From Fidelibacterota bacterium (GTDB lineage Bacteria; Fidelibacterota; Marinisomatia; SCGC-AAA003-L08; D37C17): 34,336 bases of DNA. The notes below the pieces were generated by a model, which worked only from the letters and a program-made list of their open reading frames with translations, was not told where the DNA came from and searched no databases. The stretch is from positions 56,307 to 90,642 of the forward strand of contig PBGO01000018.1 in NCBI GenBank assembly GCA_002719095.1. The letters run 5' to 3'. Positions 1 to 18,144 of the stretch are shown in pieces. A program made the position numbers and the translations under genes. How positions within the stretch are numbered: position 1 is the first letter of the stretch; the number at the start of each line of letters is the position of its first letter.

Positions 1-114
1 AAAGAAAAATTAATCGCGATTTTAAACGGTGTAAAAGGTCTTGAAGATAACAAAAGCATTAAATCGAAAAGACCAAGCAGGAAAGCTAAGTCAAACTTAA
101 AAAAATCTAAGTAA
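1..114 (+). CDS. C-terminal end of an unidentified protein (5' cut by window edge)
   Basis: Frame 1 is open from the first base to a TAA at 112-114 and encodes 37 residues. The last half is very basic, with many Lys and Arg plus Ser (for example KSKRPSRKAK), which suggests a disordered tail that binds nucleic acid or an acidic surface. A good rho-independent terminator lies just downstream, which supports this being a real gene end. The fragment is too short and too low in complexity to assign a family. Confidence 0.6.
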   Translation, partial: KEKLIAILNGVKGLEDNKSIKSKRPSRKAKSNLKKSK

Positions 115-136: not shown

Positions 137-168
137 TGAAAAAACCCTCATTTGAGGGTTTTTTTATA
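137..168 (+). terminator. Rho-independent terminator
   Basis: An inverted repeat AAAAACCCTC / GAGGGTTTTT closes a short ATTT loop and runs straight into a T tract. It lies about 25 bases after the stop of the preceding reading frame and separates it from the secretin gene. Confidence 0.85.
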
Positions 169-189: not shown

Positions 190-202
190 TTTGCTAATTA
201 TG
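190..202 (+). promoter_or_regulatory. Start-site context TTTGCTAATTATG (possible leaderless promoter element)
   Basis: The 13 bases ending in the secretin ATG differ by one base from the 13 bases ending in the gpmA ATG at 5712-5724. Neither gene has a Shine-Dalgarno sequence. The TTTG resembles the end of the Bacteroidetes-type -7 element (TAnnTTTG), although here TA and TTTG are three bases apart (TATTATTTG). Whether this is a promoter with a leaderless transcript is inference. Confidence 0.2.
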
Positions 203-2215
203 AGAAAATTAACTTTACTAATACTAACGTTTTGTGTTTGTTTAACAAGTCCTTACGATAATTGTAAATCAATATCTCTGAACCATATTAAATCTACCGA
301 TGCGCTTGCAATGCTGAAAGGTTTGGGATATAGTATTGTTGATTACACTAAAGATGAACAAAGCAACTACATTCCCAAAGTTGATATATTTGAAGATTTT
401 GATAATCTTGTTTCAGGTATTTCAATAATAAAGTTTCCATCAACTGAATCAGAATTTTTAGATTCGGGCATTTATGATGGAGAATCAACTTCTGGCCTTG
501 AAGGTATGTCTTCTTATTTAGGCGGTAGTTCAATGCCAAATATTATTTCTGGAAATCCTCCAGAAAAGATTATGGTCTGCTTTGATAACGGAAAGGAATC
601 CGATTTTATAAACTTACTAGATTTTCTAAAAAATAAAATTGATGTCCCTGCTTCGCAAATTATGATTGAGGCTTTGGTTATAGAGATAAACAGTGATGAG
701 CTAGCAGAGTTAGGTATAAATTTATCGGGACAAGGAGAAAACTATACAATTTCAACACCAGATAAATCTAGTGATAGCGGAACTGAAGTTATTTCAGGTT
801 TATCATTTGAGTACTCAGATGCGGGCTTAACTGACTCTGATGGACTTTTACTTCAAAGTATGTTTAATGCGAATCTTGAAGCAATTCTAAATTCATCAAG
901 TGGAGAAATTTTATCAAAACCTTCAGTTATGGTAATGGACGGTCGCCAAGCAAGAATACAAATTGGGCAAAATATACCAATAACTCGTACAACTTCAAGC
1001 ACAACATATACCTCCGAAGATATCGAATATGTCCCAACAGGAATAATACTTAATATTAGGCCGAGAATTAGCTCTACTTCAAATGAAATACTAATGCAGG
1101 TTGAAACAATAATAACTGACCCTGAAAACTTATCTTATAACGAAGATGGTATTTTAATAACACCAATTATTAATAATCGTAAAGTTGAAACCTTTGTAAG
1201 GGTTGAAAACAATAATCCATTTATTATTGGAGGCTTGATAAGCGATAAAAAATATGATAGCAAGGGCGGAGTACCTATAATATCCGATATTCCGTTTTTA
1301 GGAAGATTTTTTTCTAATGAAGGTAAAAATAATTTAAAAAAAGAAGTTATCATTGTGCTAACACCACATATTATATCAACTGAAAATAAAAGTTTTAGTC
1401 GAGTCATTCCTCAAAACTCACATCTTTTTGACTCTTTTGGAAACGAGCTTTTCCCAAATAGTTACAGATTAAAAGACGACGATATTTTTGATTTATCTTT
1501 TATCAAAAAAAGTGAAAAAATAAATGAGATAATGATTAATTACAGAACAAAAAATGCCAGTAATAATGAAGAAATTAGTGAGCTGACAAAAAATTTACTT
1601 GACAAAAATATTTTACCAGGCGAGGATATTCTTGTAAGAAGAATGATTTATGAAATAATCGAAAGAGAAGATTACTTTAAATATATAAATCCAGAGAAAA
1701 TTATTTTTCCAAGTCATAACGAAGGAGTACAATCACTACTAGAAGTATTAAATGATTACAACATTTTTGATAGTGAGCACTCCAAAGTATTAGTCTTGAA
1801 GTTCCTTGATGATAAAAATTCTAAGAAACCCTTTGTAAGGCCTTCTTTTAGTGTTGATGCTATTAGTACTGAATCAAGCTTTAGCAAAGAATTTAAACAA
1901 TTACTTTATCAAAAGAATCAAGTAAATGGTAATGCCATTCTTATATCTAAAGACAAACATCTCAAAAGATTATATGAGACTATAATTTTAAAAAAAATAT
2001 TAAAGTTAAACCCTGACTTAAGATTAGATATTAATTCATTCAAGACAGGTCTTGAAATTATTTTTCCATCAACAGAATCTTTGATAAACAATGAATTGTT
2101 TATAGATCGTGAAATTGCTCAGTATTATTATGAAATTAACTGGTATTATGAGGCGTTTGAAAATAAATTTAATCAACAAATGAAACCAATTCTTGAAGGA
2201 AATTATAATGAGTGA
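200..2215 (+). CDS. Orphan secretin (GspD/PilQ/type III family) with a novel ~270-residue C-terminal extension
   Basis: Predicted outer-membrane multimeric channel. I chose ATG 200 rather than an upstream in-frame TTG because it leads directly into a Sec signal peptide (MRKLTLLILTFCVCL). An N-terminal segment (about residues 27-60) resembles secretin periplasmic domains. The N3-like stretch around 150-175 reads PASQIMIEALVIEIN. The secretin core spans about 225-397 and ends in the diagnostic VPIISDIPFLGRFF and KKEVIIVLTPHII. From about 400 to 671 there is a Lys/Glu/Asn-rich region I cannot assign; most secretins end shortly after the TPHII motif apart from a short S-domain. No other secretion-system gene lies nearby. 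The stop overlaps the start of the downstream channel gene by 8 bases, so the two are probably co-translated. No clear Shine-Dalgarno is visible. Confidence 0.88.
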   Translation: MRKLTLLILTFCVCLTSPYDNCKSISLNHIKSTDALAMLKGLGYSIVDYTKDEQSNYIPKVDIFEDFDNLVSGISIIKFPSTESEFLDSGIYDGESTSGLEGMSSYLGGSSMPNIISGNPPEKIMVCFDNGKESDFINLLDFLKNKIDVPASQIMIEALVIEINSDELAELGINLSGQGENYTISTPDKSSDSGTEVISGLSFEYSDAGLTDSDGLLLQSMFNANLEAILNSSSGEILSKPSVMVMDGRQARIQIGQNIPITRTTSSTTYTSEDIEYVPTGIILNIRPRISSTSNEILMQVETIITDPENLSYNEDGILITPIINNRKVETFVRVENNNPFIIGGLISDKKYDSKGGVPIISDIPFLGRFFSNEGKNNLKKEVIIVLTPHIISTENKSFSRVIPQNSHLFDSFGNELFPNSYRLKDDDIFDLSFIKKSEKINEIMINYRTKNASNNEEISELTKNLLDKNILPGEDILVRRMIYEIIEREDYFKYINPEKIIFPSHNEGVQSLLEVLNDYNIFDSEHSKVLVLKFLDDKNSKKPFVRPSFSVDAISTESSFSKEFKQLLYQKNQVNGNAILISKDKHLKRLYETIILKKILKLNPDLRLDINSFKTGLEIIFPSTESLINNELFIDREIAQYYYEINWYYEAFENKFNQQMKPILEGNYNE

Positions 2216-3743
2216 TTTTTGGCTTAAAATTTATACGGAACTTTCACAAGATGATGGTTCAATTTTGATGATGATTTTTGTAGTAATAGGTTTATCACTC
2301 ATTTTTTTTATATCAAGGAGAATAAGTCAACTAAAAAAAATTAGAAAAAGAACACAGCTTCTATTAGCAATAGACATTGTGATTTTTCCAGTAATAATTA
2401 TTTTATTTAGCTTTATTATGAAAGCATTTGATATCGAAGACTCCTCATCGATTACATCGACTCTAATTTTGCTATCATTTACTTGGTTTTTTAATAGATT
2501 TTTATCATTATTTTTCTGGGGGCAGAGATTTGTCGATAAGACAGGAGAAAAAGCACCTAAACTTCTTCAAAATTTTATTTCGCTTATAATTTATTTATTA
2601 GTTTTGGCTTTCATTGTTGGATACATATTTCAAAAGCCTGTTACAAGTATCTTAGTTTCAACCGGTCTATTTGCAACCGTGATTGGATTTGCAATGAAAG
2701 ATTTTATAGCAGATGTAATTAATGGGATTTCTCTATCAATAGAGCGTCCTTACAATATTGGTGATTGGATAGAAATAGAAAATGGAAAATATCTTGGTAA
2801 AGTGATTGATATTACTTGGAGAACTACAAGACTGTTATCTCGTAATGACAGTATGATAGTTGTTCCAAATAATCGTTGTGGAAATATGATAATCCATAAT
2901 TTTTCAAAACCCGGAGAAGTTTATTCTAGTAATTATTGGATTTCAATTAACAGTACTTTACCGCCAAATTTAGTACAAAGGCAACTGCTTCATGGAATGC
3001 AAACTGTAAAAAATATTGTAAAAGACCCAGCACCTAGAGCATACCTAGCTGATGCAACTTCTGAGCCATTTAAGTACAATATTAGAGTATGGTGGAAAAG
3101 CTATGAGTTTAGTTATTTTGGGCGAGACCATCTTTTTAAGAGTGTTACCGAAAGTCTTGCAAAAGTAGGTATTTCTCAAACCTCATTACAATGGCAGGTT
3201 TCTAAAAGGGGACAACTCGATCAGATTCAACTTAAAAATGTTACTTACTACGACCAAGTTCAAAAAGTAGATATTTTTCAAAATTTCAGTGAAACAGATA
3301 TCAATTTGCTTATTTCAAATTCATTAATTCGAACATTTGACCCCAACGAAAGTATTGTAAATGAAAAAGAAGACGGTGATTCGTTGTTTTTAATTATCTC
3401 TGGGAATGCACGAGTATCAATACAAAAAGATGGGTCAGAAATAAAGCTTGGCTTATTATCTCCAGGTGATACTTTTGGCGAATTTTCTCTTTTAACTGGA
3501 GATAAAAGATCTGCGACAGTAAAAGCGATAAATCATTTAGAATGTATGGAAATTCCTAGAGAAGCTTTGAAAAGTATAATTGAGAAAGACCCTAACTTAA
3601 TTGATGAACTCTCATCTACAATGGCTCGTAGACAAGAATCAAATAAGAATATTAGCGAGAAAAATAAAAAGTTATCTCCAAAAGAAATATTTGATTATTA
3701 TAAGTCTGAATTTGATAAAAAAATTAAAAAATTCTTCAGCTAG
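2208..3743 (+). CDS. MscS-family channel fused to a C-terminal cyclic-nucleotide-binding domain (bCNG type)
   Basis: Inner-membrane channel of the bacterial cyclic-nucleotide-gated MscS subfamily. I chose ATG 2208, preceded by GAAGGA at a 7-base spacing, over an in-frame TTG at 2193. There are hydrophobic segments near residues 18-36, 51-74, 84-104 and 121-141. The pore-lining MscS helix follows at about 145-178 (STGLFATVIGFAMKDFIADV), then the MscS beta domain (RPYNIGDWIEI). The cNMP fold covers about 350-470 and contains a phosphate-binding cassette, FGEFSLLTGDKRSATV, with the Arg that contacts the cyclic phosphate. The known family opens or closes in response to cNMP rather than tension. 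Coupling to the upstream secretin is the notable context; co-function is inference. Confidence 0.92.
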   Translation: MSDFWLKIYTELSQDDGSILMMIFVVIGLSLIFFISRRISQLKKIRKRTQLLLAIDIVIFPVIIILFSFIMKAFDIEDSSSITSTLILLSFTWFFNRFLSLFFWGQRFVDKTGEKAPKLLQNFISLIIYLLVLAFIVGYIFQKPVTSILVSTGLFATVIGFAMKDFIADVINGISLSIERPYNIGDWIEIENGKYLGKVIDITWRTTRLLSRNDSMIVVPNNRCGNMIIHNFSKPGEVYSSNYWISINSTLPPNLVQRQLLHGMQTVKNIVKDPAPRAYLADATSEPFKYNIRVWWKSYEFSYFGRDHLFKSVTESLAKVGISQTSLQWQVSKRGQLDQIQLKNVTYYDQVQKVDIFQNFSETDINLLISNSLIRTFDPNESIVNEKEDGDSLFLIISGNARVSIQKDGSEIKLGLLSPGDTFGEFSLLTGDKRSATVKAINHLECMEIPREALKSIIEKDPNLIDELSSTMARRQESNKNISEKNKKLSPKEIFDYYKSEFDKKIKKFFS

Positions 3744-3751
3744 CCTATCTT

Positions 3752-4192
3752 TTAAATATCAGTTGACATTTTTATCAAAGATTCTCTATCAATAATATCT
3801 AAAGTTTTTTCATGCGTGGATTTGGCTAAAATTTTTGGTGCAACTCCATTATCATAAGCCTCTTTCCATCGAATTGCACATAGACACCATTTATCACCCG
3901 GCTTTAATCCTGGGAAATTAAATTCTTTTCGTTCTGATATTAAATCATTACCCCTACCTAATGAAAAGTTTAAAAATTCCTCAGTTATAATCGCACATAC
4001 TGTGTGTGTTCCATAGTCTCTTTCTCCTGTCTCACAGTATCCAGTTCTATAAAAACCTGTTATGGGATCGTTACAACACAAATTAAGCTCAGTACCTAAA
4101 ATATTTTTACTTTTCATAATTACTAGCTTTGAGTCGCAAGATACAATTAATACAAAAAAAAAATACATTATTATATTTATCATAATATTCAT
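3752..4192 (-). CDS. DUF2237 family protein with an N-terminal lipobox
   Basis: The body matches the DUF2237 family: NILGTELNLCCNDPITGF, GSHTVCA-like GTHTVCAIITEEFL, FPGLKPGDKWCLCA and a final THEKTLDII segment, with its conserved Cys residues. DUF2237 proteins are usually short cytosolic proteins of unknown function. Here about 25 extra residues precede the domain. They form a hydrophobic stretch ending in LIVSC, a good lipoprotein signal peptidase II site, so the product may be a lipoprotein. An alternative start at Met26 (4117) would give the ordinary cytosolic form but has no Shine-Dalgarno. The 4192 start lies two bases after the stop of the aldo/keto reductase, which suggests translational coupling. 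Confidence 0.88.
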   Translation of the reverse strand: MNIMINIIMYFFFVLIVSCDSKLVIMKSKNILGTELNLCCNDPITGFYRTGYCETGERDYGTHTVCAIITEEFLNFSLGRGNDLISERKEFNFPGLKPGDKWCLCAIRWKEAYDNGVAPKILAKSTHEKTLDIIDRESLIKMSTDI

Positions 4193-6388: not shown

Positions 6389-7984
6389 TCAGTCTAAATC
6401 AATAATTATATTAACTAAAGTAACAACATCAAGAACATTTAGCTCATTATCAAAATTTAAATCTGCTAAAATCATTTGTTGATTATTAAAGTTGATATTG
6501 TTTGTTAAATAACTCACTAAACCTACAACATCTAAAACGTTTAATGTTTCATCAACGTTAATATCACCAATTATCATGTTATGATCTATTCGATGAACTG
6601 AGTTTTCTGAGTGATTAACGTACCAAATTTTTCTGTCTGGACCAATTTTTACTCCCATTATACTATTTTGATAACCAGTATCGATTACACCAATTTCTTG
6701 CGGGTTATATGATGATGTATCATAGATGTGTATGTACCCAGATTCATAGTCACTTACAACAAGGCGATTGTTATAAAAGTCAATTCCTGAAGGCTTTAAA
6801 AGTCCCTGTTCAATATAAATATCCCACGACGCATTCTCCATAAGCCAATATTGTTCAAGAGATTCTCCATAAGGATTAAGCTCTTCTAGATAATTACCTG
6901 AAAAAGTATCAAAAATCAATATTCTCTGGTTACCTGTATCCGCAATATAAAGCAGACCGGTATTGTCATCAAATACTAGATGACTGGAAACACCATCATG
7001 CATATTTATCTCAATATCATCATATCTCCACACTTTGCCATCGGAATGATCATGTCCTCCTGGTTCATGTGGATTAGAAAAATCATACCTAACAATTGAC
7101 GAGTGATACCCATCAAAAACCCAATAAACATTTCCAGTACCTGCATAATCTATTCCCATTGAAAAAGGGCTTTGATGAATCATATCTAAATGACTTCCTA
7201 GTAAAGGTCCATTCTGATTTATAATAGCATACTGAGAAAGGTTAGAATCCCATAAAGTTGGTCCACTAAAGAAACCATTAATATTATTATTTGCATCTTT
7301 ACACTCAAGAGTGTTAGCGAAAAAACCCTGATTATCAAATGCTAATGCGCTTGCTGTATTCATAAAATGTCTTGAATAAGAATCTTTTCTATACTCTGAT
7401 GTTTGATTCGATTCCCCCGCATCACTGTATATCACTGTACTACCTCCTGGCTCAAGCTTTTTAGCATATATTATACTTTCTGAAAAGTCTGTCAACTGCC
7501 AAGAAATTTCTTTTGCCCAATCATCAGTATTGATTATCACTTCGATTGAAGATTCATTTTCTGCACAAGAATTCGGGCACGAAGACTCTATGAAAAATGA
7601 AGTTGATTCGCTAGATTCATATTCTCCTCCTGAAGCGTAAATATTATTACAATCAGAAACAAGATAAGAACCTTCACCGCTATCGCAACAAATACCGTCA
7701 TCATCAGAATCATAAATAGTAAAAATCAAATTCATATTTACTGGCAAACAATGGCTTGTTATAATTTGACTATTATTTTGGTAGGCATCTTCACCCTGAT
7801 TCAATACCCATAATTGATTATTAATAATTGGATGGAAATCTAAATCTCTTGGTTTTTCTACTCCATCCTCAATTGTACCTATAAGTTCATGGTTATGGGA
7901 ACTATTAATATATAAATCGATTGGGTTTTGTGCTAAAATTATCGTTAAAAAAACCAAAAAAATATTACTTTTATTAGAAACCAT
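6389..7984 (-). CDS. Secreted NHL-type beta-propeller protein with inserted DGICC module and C-terminal dockerin-like repeats
   Basis: Extracellular protein of unknown role. A signal peptide (about residues 8-19, ending AQN) comes first. NHL/SMP-30-like blade motifs occur at about 45-62 (PRDLDFHP, LWVLNQ) and again from about 205 to 465 (SALAFDNQGFFA, LLYIADTGNQRILIFD, GIDFYNNRLVVSDY, KIWYVNHSENSVHRID). Between them, roughly residues 67-181, lies a Cys-rich insert with SHCLP, IYDSDDDGICC and TDDWAKEISWQL, in an order reversed relative to the usual module. The last 60 residues hold two dockerin-like calcium loops (GDINVDETLNVLDVV and ADLNFDNELNVLDVV). The gene follows the S9 peptidase gene by 11 bases and is probably in one operon with it. 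Ligand or substrate unknown. Confidence 0.85.
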   Translation of the reverse strand: MVSNKSNIFLVFLTIILAQNPIDLYINSSHNHELIGTIEDGVEKPRDLDFHPIINNQLWVLNQGEDAYQNNSQIITSHCLPVNMNLIFTIYDSDDDGICCDSGEGSYLVSDCNNIYASGGEYESSESTSFFIESSCPNSCAENESSIEVIINTDDWAKEISWQLTDFSESIIYAKKLEPGGSTVIYSDAGESNQTSEYRKDSYSRHFMNTASALAFDNQGFFANTLECKDANNNINGFFSGPTLWDSNLSQYAIINQNGPLLGSHLDMIHQSPFSMGIDYAGTGNVYWVFDGYHSSIVRYDFSNPHEPGGHDHSDGKVWRYDDIEINMHDGVSSHLVFDDNTGLLYIADTGNQRILIFDTFSGNYLEELNPYGESLEQYWLMENASWDIYIEQGLLKPSGIDFYNNRLVVSDYESGYIHIYDTSSYNPQEIGVIDTGYQNSIMGVKIGPDRKIWYVNHSENSVHRIDHNMIIGDINVDETLNVLDVVGLVSYLTNNINFNNQQMILADLNFDNELNVLDVVTLVNIIIDLD

Positions 7985-13672: not shown

Positions 13673-14559
13673 TTGGTTTTCAAATTAATAGCAGCACCCA
13701 CCATATGAGATTTACTTTTAAATTTACTTTCTTGAACTTTACATGGAAATTGTCTGAAAATTGGTGAGTTTTCACTTATAGATTTTAGCATTTCCTCCTT
13801 GTAAATAGCAAATGCTTTTGATAGACCACCTCCAATTACAATTACTCCCGGGTCAATCATATTTATGACATGACTTATGACAACGCCAAGATTTCTTCCA
13901 AAATCGTTAAATATTTCTTTTGCTTTATGATCACCATCAATAGCATATTTTTGAATTATTCTTGGACTTATTTTTTGTCCATAAATTTTTTCAATATTAT
14001 TTTTAATATATTTTAGACAGACCTTGTCTTCCCAAATACCCCATTCACAAGATGAGATACCGTATTCAGCTGCCATACCATTTTTACCCAGATGCATTTT
14101 TCCATTCAATACAACTCCAAACCCTAATCCTGTTCCCAAAGTTATACCAACAAAAATCTCCTCTTTTTTGTGAGCTTGTGACCACTCTCCTAACGCAAAT
14201 AAATTGGCGTCATTTTCAATCAAAACCTCACAATTAAAGTATCGTTGTAATTTTAATTTTAAAGAAAAATTTTGGAATAACTTCAAATTTGGAGTTTCGA
14301 GTATGATACCATTTTTTGAATCTAAAGGACCCGGACAAGCAACAGATAAACCATTGACTCTTGATTTATCAATACTATTTTTTTTTAATAATCTATTAAT
14401 TTGAAAACATATTCCCTTAAGAAGCTCTGATGCGGTGGAATAATTTCTTACCTGATCTTTTGGAGACATATCTAGAATAGCTAATTTATCATAGCTCAAT
14501 ATAGCTGATTCAAAAGTAGTTCCACCAATGTCAATAGTGATAATAGTATCTTTTTTCAC
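13669..14559 (-). CDS. ROK-family sugar kinase with a degenerate zinc site
   Basis: Probable glucokinase-like ATP-dependent hexose kinase. The phosphate-binding loop TIDIGGTT starts at residue 8, the sugar-binding segment is GLSVACPGPLD, the catalytic Asp117 is in ENDANLFALGE, and LGTGLGFG completes the ATP site. In most ROK kinases E-x-G-H is followed by a C-x-C-G-x-x-G-C-x-E zinc motif. Here the region reads AAEYGISSCEWGIWEDKVC: the His is Ile and only two Cys remain, ten apart, so normal zinc binding is unlikely. Start is GTG at 14557-14559, which gives the usual N-terminal spacing to DIGGT; a TATAAT sequence lies eight bases upstream of it. The stop overlaps the ABC exporter start. Confidence 0.88.
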   Translation of the reverse strand: MKKDTIITIDIGGTTFESAILSYDKLAILDMSPKDQVRNYSTASELLKGICFQINRLLKKNSIDKSRVNGLSVACPGPLDSKNGIILETPNLKLFQNFSLKLKLQRYFNCEVLIENDANLFALGEWSQAHKKEEIFVGITLGTGLGFGVVLNGKMHLGKNGMAAEYGISSCEWGIWEDKVCLKYIKNNIEKIYGQKISPRIIQKYAIDGDHKAKEIFNDFGRNLGVVISHVINMIDPGVIVIGGGLSKAFAIYKEEMLKSISENSPIFRQFPCKVQESKFKSKSHMVGAAINLKTK

Positions 14560-14590: not shown

Positions 14591-14658
14591 CAAATTAATT
14601 ATTTAGTGCTTGATACAATTAGCATAAATTTACTTTGAATTGTAAAATGGAGATAATT

Positions 14659-17600
14659 ATGGTTTTAAAAAATTATATGAATGTTATTTTGTTATTAGTA
14701 GGTCTAATTTTTGCAAATAAAGAAGTATCTAATTTTAAATTTGAACAAGGTAAAATCATATTTGAGCTTGAACAAATTCACGAAAAAACAGAGGAAGGAT
14801 ATCTTAAACTGCCCATCAAACAATCTTCATCGTCCGATATTGGATATCCAGAAATACCTTCATATAGTAGCTTATATCTTGTGGATCCGTCTGCAAACTA
14901 TAGCTTTGATGTTGTTGTTCATGATTCTTATACTATTGATGATGTAGTAATCTACCCTCACCAGGGTCCAAATTCGGCAGAAAAACTAACAAAAAATGAA
15001 ATATTTTATAACAGCAATAATACTTATCCTGAATCTTTAATCTCTGTTTCAGATCGCAAGAAAGCAAGAAATATGGAATTAGTTTCAATAATTGTTTATC
15101 CTTATTCTTATAATGCAGGAACAAAAGAGCTTGAGGTTTTTACAAACCTTGAGATTATAGCAACCAAAGAATCATATCGAGAGTCTAGTAATAACGCGGA
15201 GATGAAGCGTTCAAGATTATTTGAACAATTATATTCTGATATGATTATAAACTTTGAAGAATCTAGCAGAGAAGAAGACTATCAACATCCATCTATTTTG
15301 TATATTTGTGGTGGAAATTCATGTGATAACTCGTACGCGCAACAGCTATTTCAATGGAGACATGAGCAAGGTTATATTGTTTATACCGCTACAGAATCAG
15401 AAGTTGGTGGAAATAATGCATCAGCATCAGAAATAAAAAACTTTATAGAAGATGCAGTAGAATCATGGGACAACCCTCCAGAAATGGTAGGGTTGATAGG
15501 TGACACAGAGGGAAGCTACGATTTACCATGTAATTTTCACGATTGGGGAGGAGGAGGATGGTATGGAGGCTACAACGGCTCTTCTGACTTTGATTATACT
15601 CAGCTTGATGGAAATGATTTACTTGCTGATGTATTAATTGGCAGAATATCTGCAGAAAATTCTTCCGATTTAGCCAATATAATCAATAAGACAATTCAAT
15701 ACGAGAAAGGTATATATCAATCTGAAAGTTGGTTTGAAGGTGCTGCCCTAGTCGGAGACCCATCAGATTCAGGAGTATCAACAATAATCACCAATCAATA
15801 CATTGAAAATATTCTCGGAAATTATGGTTTTGAAAATATTTCTACAAATTATGGACAAGGTAATTATGACGATTGGGTTGAAGATAGATTTGACGAAGGA
15901 ATTCTATATTATAATTACCGAGGATTTTATGGATCAAGTGGCATTAATTCATCGGGTTTCAACAACGGGTTTGAAACACCTTTCGTTACAAGTTTAACTT
16001 GTGGTACAGGTGGTTTTGATGGTAATGCTGACAGCGAAAATTTTGTCAGGGCAGGTTCTGTCACTCAACCCAAAGGAGCAGTTGCTGCAGTTGGGGTTGC
16101 TACATCAGGGACTCATACAGCTTACAACAATATAGTAGATATGGGCATATACGAAGGTATATTCTCTAAGAGTTTAGAGTATTCTTCAGCAGTGACTACG
16201 AGTGGACATCTGGCTCTATTTAATACATACCCTTCTGACCCAGCTAATATTACAGAAACTTTTATATCGTGGACCAACTTAATTGGCGATCCTGCGCTTC
16301 ATTTGTGGACTGACACTCCTAAAAATTTCTCAATTAATTATCCTTTATCTATTAACCAAGGAACAACTAATATGGTAATAGGTGTTAATGATGGCAATGG
16401 AAATTCAGTTGAAGGTGCGATAGTAACATTACTACAAGGTAATGATATCATATATGTATCAAAAACTTCAGATATTGATGGTTTTGTTGATTTTCACTGG
16501 GATGATGTTTCAAGCTCTGAAGATATAATACTCACAATCAGAAAAAGAAATTTTAGGCCATTCCAAAGAACTATCGAAGTTTCAAACGATAGTTTTTTAG
16601 CAGCTGATGATTCAAATATTTTATTTATTGGTCAGGAAAATATTTATCCAGGAAATTTAGTAACTTTCAAGATTCCTGTTACAAATTACAATAATAATCC
16701 AGCGCAAAATGTGGTTGGGACACTAACATCAAACTCAAATTTTGCAACAATCATACAAGCAGTTTCAAATTATGGAAGCATAGGATCTAATCAAAATAAC
16801 GATGGTACAAATTATCAAATACAAATTTCTGATGATGCATACGAGACATCAAATCTAGAGCTAAAGCTAAATGTAATTTCTAATAATTCGAATAATATGT
16901 ATTCCATTCCCATAACTGTGAGTGCACCATTGATTGAACCAATTGCAACTATAATTAATGAACAAGAGCAAACTATTGCAATATCATTATTGAATAGCGG
17001 CTCGGTTCGTGCAGAGGATTTAAACATTGAATTAGAATCAAATAATGAGATGATTAGTATTTTAACTTCTTCACAATTCGTTGACAATTTAAATCCTGGG
17101 CAATACAACGACATAGTCTTTAATTACAATACGAATGCAAGCTTCATTCCTGGCCAAACTTTTTCTTTGCCTATCACAATATCTAGTAGTGCAGGCTATA
17201 ATAAGCAAGAGTTTGTTAATGTAACTCTTGGTCAAGTTTCAACCACAGATCCTCTTGGTCCAGATGAATATGGGTATATGATATATGATTCTGGCGATTC
17301 TAACTATGATTTAGCTCCTGAATATGAATGGATTGAGATTGCTGAAGGGCTAGGCAATAATCTTAATTTAGATGACGATGGAGATGGAAACGGTTCTAAT
17401 AGAACTGCCTTAGTCTCTCTTCCTTTTAATTTTAAGTTTTATGGTCAAACCTATACCGAAATTACTGTTAGCGCAGATGGATGGATATCTTTTGGAAGAA
17501 ATGACATCCCCTCTTTCAGGAATCATCCATTGCCTGGAGCAGGAGGTCCATCTCCAATGGTTGCTGCTTTTTGGGATGATTTAAAAACAGGTTCCGGTGG

Positions 17601-18144
17601 AAATGTCTATACTTATAGCAATGATGAATATTTAGTCATTCAGTGGGATTATATGCGAACTTACCAAAACAATGATAGGCAAACATTTGAAATCATTCTT
17701 TATAATAATGAACTTCTTGATGATCCTACTATTTCAGGAGATAATGAAATTAAAATTCAGTATTACGATTTTAATAACACTACTTCTGGATACTATCCTG
17801 AAGGAGGCACACCCGTGCATGGATGTTATTCGACTATAGGTATTGAGAATCACATGGGAAATCAAGGTCTGCAGTATACGTTTGATAATCAATACTCACC
17901 AGCAGCGATGAGTTTGAGTGATGGTGATGCTATTTTTATTACAACAGGAAAAATATCGTACACATTAGGTGACCTCAACTTTGATAGTACAGTAAATGTT
18001 CTTGATGTTGTTACATTAGTAAATATTGTATTAAATATAATTGAGCCTAATTCTGCGCAAGAATTAGCATCTGATTTGAACGGAGATGGAACTTTAAATG
18101 TTCTTGATGTAGTTTTAATAGTTAATCTAGCTCTAGGTACGTAA
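14659..18144 (+). CDS. Giant secreted peptidase-C25 (gingipain)-like protein with dockerin-like tail
   Basis: 1161 residues from ATG 14659, chosen for GGAG eight bases upstream and the signal peptide that follows (YMNVILLLVGLIFA). An N-terminal prodomain (about 20-205) precedes the C25 domain (about 210-560): ILYICGG, MVGLIGDTEGSYDLP, VLIGRISAEN and LIGDPALHLW are typical. The Cys448 nucleophile motif is kept (LTCGTGGFDG), but the expected GHG His region reads NYRGFYG, with Phe423 in the His place. Ig-like/CARDB-like domains follow, then a beta-sandwich with LPFNFKFYGQTYTEITVSAD, and two dockerin-like loops at the C-terminus (GDLNFDSTVNVLDVV and SDLNGDGTLNVLDVV). It may be a non-catalytic or unusual protease. 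The 13 bases ending at its ATG match those of hsp20. Confidence 0.88.
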   Translation: MVLKNYMNVILLLVGLIFANKEVSNFKFEQGKIIFELEQIHEKTEEGYLKLPIKQSSSSDIGYPEIPSYSSLYLVDPSANYSFDVVVHDSYTIDDVVIYPHQGPNSAEKLTKNEIFYNSNNTYPESLISVSDRKKARNMELVSIIVYPYSYNAGTKELEVFTNLEIIATKESYRESSNNAEMKRSRLFEQLYSDMIINFEESSREEDYQHPSILYICGGNSCDNSYAQQLFQWRHEQGYIVYTATESEVGGNNASASEIKNFIEDAVESWDNPPEMVGLIGDTEGSYDLPCNFHDWGGGGWYGGYNGSSDFDYTQLDGNDLLADVLIGRISAENSSDLANIINKTIQYEKGIYQSESWFEGAALVGDPSDSGVSTIITNQYIENILGNYGFENISTNYGQGNYDDWVEDRFDEGILYYNYRGFYGSSGINSSGFNNGFETPFVTSLTCGTGGFDGNADSENFVRAGSVTQPKGAVAAVGVATSGTHTAYNNIVDMGIYEGIFSKSLEYSSAVTTSGHLALFNTYPSDPANITETFISWTNLIGDPALHLWTDTPKNFSINYPLSINQGTTNMVIGVNDGNGNSVEGAIVTLLQGNDIIYVSKTSDIDGFVDFHWDDVSSSEDIILTIRKRNFRPFQRTIEVSNDSFLAADDSNILFIGQENIYPGNLVTFKIPVTNYNNNPAQNVVGTLTSNSNFATIIQAVSNYGSIGSNQNNDGTNYQIQISDDAYETSNLELKLNVISNNSNNMYSIPITVSAPLIEPIATIINEQEQTIAISLLNSGSVRAEDLNIELESNNEMISILTSSQFVDNLNPGQYNDIVFNYNTNASFIPGQTFSLPITISSSAGYNKQEFVNVTLGQVSTTDPLGPDEYGYMIYDSGDSNYDLAPEYEWIEIAEGLGNNLNLDDDGDGNGSNRTALVSLPFNFKFYGQTYTEITVSADGWISFGRNDIPSFRNHPLPGAGGPSPMVAAFWDDLKTGSGGNVYTYSNDEYLVIQWDYMRTYQNNDRQTFEIILYNNELLDDPTISGDNEIKIQYYDFNNTTSGYYPEGGTPVHGCYSTIGIENHMGNQGLQYTFDNQYSPAAMSLSDGDAIFITTGKISYTLGDLNFDSTVNVLDVVTLVNIVLNIIEPNSAQELASDLNGDGTLNVLDVVLIVNLALGT

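Follow-up and report, generated by a model that had tools for sequence, protein, structure and literature searches.

An orphan secretin family linked to inner-membrane transporters and channels, and its one-genome variant overlapping an MscS channel with a cyclic-nucleotide-binding domain

Secretins are known as gates in secretion and pilus machines that consist of many components, and the one encoded here is a member of a widespread, apparently undescribed orphan family that is neither GspD nor PilQ. Judging from its gene arrangements across genomes, we see about an even chance that this family provides inner-membrane transporters with an exit gate in the outer membrane and does not belong to a T2SS, T3SS or pilus. 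A less secure, though still serious, extension of this idea is that the family would serve interchangeable partners (NTT-HEAT-cNMP proteins, ABC exporters and MscS channels) with control by cyclic nucleotide (cNMP) in several lineages, and that in this genome a cNMP-gated MscS channel replaced the carrier, which might amount to an undescribed class of two-membrane systems. The window, a stretch of 34,336 nucleotides from a marine Fidelibacterota bacterium (contig PBGO01000018.1), is a one-genome variant of the broader secretin-transporter theme and not its defining member. Novelty lies in the arrangement, and every component belongs to a known protein superfamily; among open-licence PMC papers, we found no title or abstract that pairs secretins with Marinimicrobia, mechanosensitive channels, ABC exporters or HEAT/cNMP proteins.

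The secretin-channel gene pair

An earlier note on this DNA had described an 8-base overlap between a secretin gene and a gene for an MscS channel fused to a cNMP-binding domain, and the two reading frames indeed share exactly these bases (Table 1). The signal peptide that it ascribed to the secretin is compatible with the hydrophobic N-terminus of the protein (MRKLTLLILTFCVCLTSP..., judged by eye). Between the stop of the preceding gene at 114 and the start of the secretin lies a hairpin with a T-run (-16.7 kcal/mol) that is absent from the output of a separate pattern scan, and the gene 3' of the channel (3752-4192) is on the opposite strand, so that secretin and channel look like one bicistronic unit.

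Table 1. Features of the secretin-channel region in positions of the window
Feature	Position	Strand	Basis or remark
Small secreted basic protein, 3' end of gene	1..114	+	ORF L066_17; own transcription unit
Terminator-like hairpin with T-run	137..166	+	z = -4.8
Orphan secretin, 671 aa	200..2215	+	ATG at 200, stop at 2213-2215; PF00263 E 2e-41; full-length family
Secretin beta-barrel domain (PF00263), aa 232-392	893..1375	+	Foldseek best matches GspD-type secretins
Family-specific C-terminal alpha/beta domain, aa 398-671	1391..2212	+	conserved in 49 members; AF2
Stop/start overlap ATGAGTGA, 8 bases	2208..2215	+	sequence
MscS-family channel with C-terminal cNMP-binding domain (bCNG-like), 511 aa	2208..3743	+	ATG at 2208, stop ends at 3743; PF00924, PF00027
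MscS beta-domain, aa 165-234	2700..2909	+	profile match, MS_channel_2nd, E 5e-15
Cyclic-nucleotide-binding domain, aa 375-461	3330..3590	+	profile match, cNMP_binding, E 4e-21
Phosphate-binding-cassette motif FGEFSLLTGDKRSATV, Glu and Arg present	3474..3521	+	sequence

The preceding gene encodes a small secreted basic protein of 100 aa (full gene G000:C24:56118-56420) whose place before the secretin is that of small secreted proteins in relatives (L067_7, L072_3), a likeness seen by eye only; BLAST did not cluster them. Farther away, the window encodes a C25 (gingipain-type) peptidase with a dockerin domain (14635-18144) and an NHL-repeat protein whose dockerin match is weak (6389-7984), and some 2.5 kb upstream of the secretin, a gene has a weak CsgG-like match (E 3.6e-5; L066:14949-15971, that is, G000:C24:52948-53970).

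The secretin family and its partners

Homologues align with the window secretin over their full length including the ca. 270 C-terminal residues, and it is this full-length match, C-terminal domain included, that places the window secretin in the family. The AF2 model of the C-terminal domain is of good confidence (pLDDT 87, pTM 0.86), and neither profile search nor fold search gave a PDB match for it; the full-length secretin was modelled as a monomer with moderate confidence (pLDDT 73.8, pTM 0.47). At E <= 1e-60, the family was found in 40 of the 171 genomes of the class (Marinimicrobia). Outside the phylum it occurs in records labelled Gemmatimonadetes, Latescibacteria, Opitutia/Verrucomicrobia, Acidobacteria, Deltaproteobacteria, Bacteroidetes, Phycisphaeraceae and Lentisphaeria, where the names are record labels and the GTDB phylum searched around L142 ("Gemmatimonadetes") includes the genomes of L141, L147 and L155 as well. 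Most genomes are MAGs, and the clades are unevenly sampled. In one locus, a single ORF of 1238 aa encodes the secretin together with a secreted acidic EF-hand-like protein (L105:6947-10663), a fusion that may be an artefact given ambiguous bases there. Since this ORF (L105_9) made a clustering lump the secretin with the EF-hand proteins downstream of it, counts do not rely on those cluster labels.

A first partner in Marinimicrobia is an NTT-HEAT-cNMP gene, which lies within 3 kb of the secretin in 20 of 43 loci, convergent after it in the window's taxonomic family and divergent upstream of it in another. This gene is present in 37 of the 40 secretin-bearing genomes of the class (Fisher p 3e-12, ignoring relatedness); the remaining three are two incomplete MAGs (58% and 72%) and the window genome, which has no match at E 1e-30 and is 90% complete, so that absence is not certain. 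Another 42 genomes of the class carry NTT-HEAT-cNMP and no secretin, and the gene therefore has other roles too. In five loci outside the phylum (L141, L142, L143, L147 and L155), genes for NTT-HEAT, for a cNMP-binding protein and for the secretin follow each other on one strand, and in L153 the order is secretin, NTT-HEAT-cNMP and class III cyclase. A eukaryotic-type cyclic-nucleotide phosphodiesterase (PF00233) stands directly 3' of the secretin in three loci (L143:6523-7887, L148:2243-3490 and L167:2054-3394). The operon of NTT-HEAT and cNMP-binding genes was already known from work that makes no mention of secretins (Major et al. 2017, PMC5381601).

Two side observations concern these genes. 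The phosphodiesterase of L148 has a lipobox-like signal (LSGC), with a similar LTPAC seen by eye in L143 and L167. Many NTT-HEAT genes of Marinimicrobia lie away from secretins and adjoin a conserved membrane protein of ca. 100 aa and a secreted protein that bears the motif NTNGALENC (L178, L179, L181, L182, L184, L185, L188, L191 and L193).

ABC exporters are a second partner. In 11 loci of Phycisphaerae and Lentisphaeria genomes, both are encoded by one ORF (L160, L162, L164, L168, L171, L213, L214, L217, L218, L220 and L221), with an ABC part that consists of PF00664 and PF00005 where scanned and with one of the fusions residing in a single contig of 7.4 Mb. In nine of these 11 ORFs, a hydrophobic, signal-like stretch separates the exporter from the secretin part, and the product may thus be cut there. 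Four further loci (L222-L225; 15 with the fusions) carry exporter and secretin as adjacent genes on the same strand, and a search of five fusion genomes for NTT-HEAT gave no match.

The third partner is an MscS channel without cNMP domain directly downstream of the secretin on the same strand, found in L219 and eight related genomes of Phycisphaerae type (n = 9; the eight channels are 68-76% identical to that of L219). From secretin to channel start codon, the gap is about 0 to 290 bases, and the pair persists though other neighbours are rearranged. No channel hit was obtained in L233 of the same group or in the more distant L234 and L239.

A proposed gate for interchangeable transporters and its alternatives

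Three kinds of transporter or channel are thus tied to one gate family by fusion, operon and conserved neighbourhood, for which shared function is the best explanation and which suggests that the overlap in the window is more than packing. Roughly half of the sampled loci have such a linked inner-membrane gene, in the window the overlapping MscS-cNMP channel, and about half have no transporter of these kinds within 5 kb. Since the nine MscS pairs and the majority of the ABC fusions stem from one or two lineages, they represent few independent events. Further points against this explanation are that the exact pair occurs in one genome only, that the NTT gene of Marinimicrobia is convergent or divergent, not co-transcribed with the secretin, and is present in 42 genomes of the class without it, and that the Phycisphaerae MscS channel has no cNMP domain and shares just 28% identity over 133 aa with that of the window. 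The two-membrane pairing of secretin and channel proposed in the earlier note hence survives in part: the secretin stands outside T2SS and type IV pili, and inner-membrane transporters or channels, often ones with cNMP binding, recur as companions of its family, but the exact pair does not recur in relatives.

In most relatives, the partner would be an NTT-HEAT-cNMP protein; in the window genome, the MscS-cNMP channel would take its place and bring along the same kind of regulatory domain. Cyclic nucleotide bound on the cytoplasmic side would open the channel, possibly in concert with membrane tension, and so admit small solutes or nucleotides to the periplasm, which they would then leave through the secretin; for this scheme, we infer physical contact, cargo, direction and gating ligand from sequence. 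If true, it would constitute a second, TolC-like route across the Gram-negative envelope in which a secretin travels with single inner-membrane transporters, even in-frame with an ABC exporter, and it would place the uncharacterised NTT-HEAT-cNMP proteins and bCNG channels in a physiological context, namely the controlled movement of nucleotides or solutes through both membranes. Thanks to the ABC fusions and MscS pairs, the idea can be put to a direct test.

An unlikely reading, yet the one that competes best, is that the secretin alone, or together with neighbouring lipoprotein and secreted acidic EF-hand proteins, forms an export pore for protein or polymer, with the transporters being incidental and the overlap reflecting gene packing in a small genome. 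Two other Marinimicrobia families indeed have a lipoprotein upstream of the secretin and a secreted EF-hand/acidic protein downstream, and Latescibacterota-type loci with no transporter nearby have a lipoprotein 3' of the secretin that is related to the former (profile-profile probability 97%), while the uniqueness of the MscS-cNMP pair to one genome points the same way. This reading does not account for the fact that three kinds of inner-membrane transporter have become linked to the family repeatedly and independently, single-ORF fusions included, or for an MscS pair that is kept amid rearranged neighbours. The lipoprotein may serve the secretin as an assembly factor; in the window's taxonomic family, the small secreted basic protein occupies its place.

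The channel itself has three hydrophobic segments (aa 14-42, 47-77 and 116-146) ahead of its MscS beta-domain and C-terminal cNMP-binding domain, the combination that defines bCNG channels, and its PDB relatives are MscS, YnaI, PKA/PKG and CRP. We take the Glu and Arg of its phosphate-binding-cassette motif to be those of cAMP/cGMP binders such as CRP and PKA, and we infer that the channel is opened by cyclic nucleotide. The cyclases for which the earlier note had suggested a search do exist in the genome, as two of class III, but on other contigs (C30 and C13).

Conservation of the pair, which that note had proposed to check, did not hold up. At E <= 1e-22, none of the 170 other genomes of the class has a counterpart of the channel (1/171 with the window), and the only channel-like protein among the 244 other genomes of the phylum (2/245 with the window) is 28% identical and lies away from any secretin, so that no second pair was found; the exact combination of secretin and MscS-cNMP channel is seen in the window genome only and, within its own phylum, is not conserved as a unit. 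The note had also considered that related secretins might sit in ordinary T2SS or pilus operons with the channel as an occasional neighbour. Family secretins are not in such operons and have other partners, but the channel is a neighbour in one genome only.

One could see an ordinary bCNG or osmotic-release channel, recently acquired and acting at the inner membrane only, whose position behind the secretin is meaningless. The missing orthologue in the class fits this, as does the existence of stand-alone MscS-cNMP channels such as that of the phylum relative just mentioned. We nonetheless regard it as improbable because the channel overlaps the secretin in one unit and because, in a second lineage, an MscS channel became established independently behind secretins of this family.

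Comparison with known systems

With GspD of the T2SS and PilQ of type IV pili, the window secretin shares the beta-barrel, and its best Foldseek matches are PulD, GspD and XcpQ. It differs from them in lacking STN and Secretin_N, in its scores and in its own C-terminal domain. Against the GspD model TIGR02517, it reaches 169.8 bits (curated cut-off 351.35), against the PilQ model 133.9 bits (cut-off 284.35), and its match to the MshL model is likewise well under the curated cut-off; STN (N0) and Secretin_N were found in none of the 49 family members scanned, in which PF00263 was the only domain detected. As the earlier note had stated for the adjacent genes, there are no GspE/F, PilM-P or pilin genes among those scanned over ca. 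18 kb upstream (L066) and 10 kb downstream, and hence neither the GspE/F and pseudopilin genes co-located with T2SS secretins nor a pilMNOPQ context.

T2SS genes can be scattered in some bacteria, and the genome does encode a pilus-type machine, of which the window secretin might be a second, detached outer-membrane component. The odds are heavily against it, since that machine, on another contig (G000:C1) with PilB- and PilT-type ATPases and PilM, has its own secretin with both STN and Secretin_N, and since the family's relatives are located elsewhere with other partners. On domains, scores and the separate pilus locus, we rejected a second pilus secretin.

The bCNG channels are members of the MscS superfamily with a cNMP-binding domain, according to Caldwell et al. 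2010 as cited in PMC4560390. The window channel has the same order of domains and differs in that its gene overlaps that of a secretin. NTT-HEAT and NTT-HEAT-cNBD proteins (Major et al. 2017, PMC5381601) combine an inner-membrane carrier homologue with a cNMP-binding domain, fused or in an operon, and differ from the window in that no NTT-HEAT protein was detected in its genome. TolC-type tripartite efflux and type I secretion resemble the proposed system in the way of working only, with one outer-membrane channel family for various inner-membrane transporters; in the window, the outer-membrane part is a secretin and not a TolC-type factor, and no periplasmic adaptor was identified among the scanned neighbours of the pair. 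For bCNG channels, we know of no link to an outer-membrane gate.

Pycsar effectors, like the window channel, are membrane proteins with a cNMP-binding domain, and PADLOC models of them match this domain of the channel; that it is a cyclic-nucleotide-activated defence effector placed behind the secretin by chance is nevertheless very improbable and was rejected, as the matches are limited to the cNMP domain, there is no TIR or PycTM match, and both class III cyclases lie on other contigs and not beside the channel. Another MscS homologue of this genome and a class III cyclase domain are some 3 kb apart (G000:C13:9850-10485 and 13760-14194).
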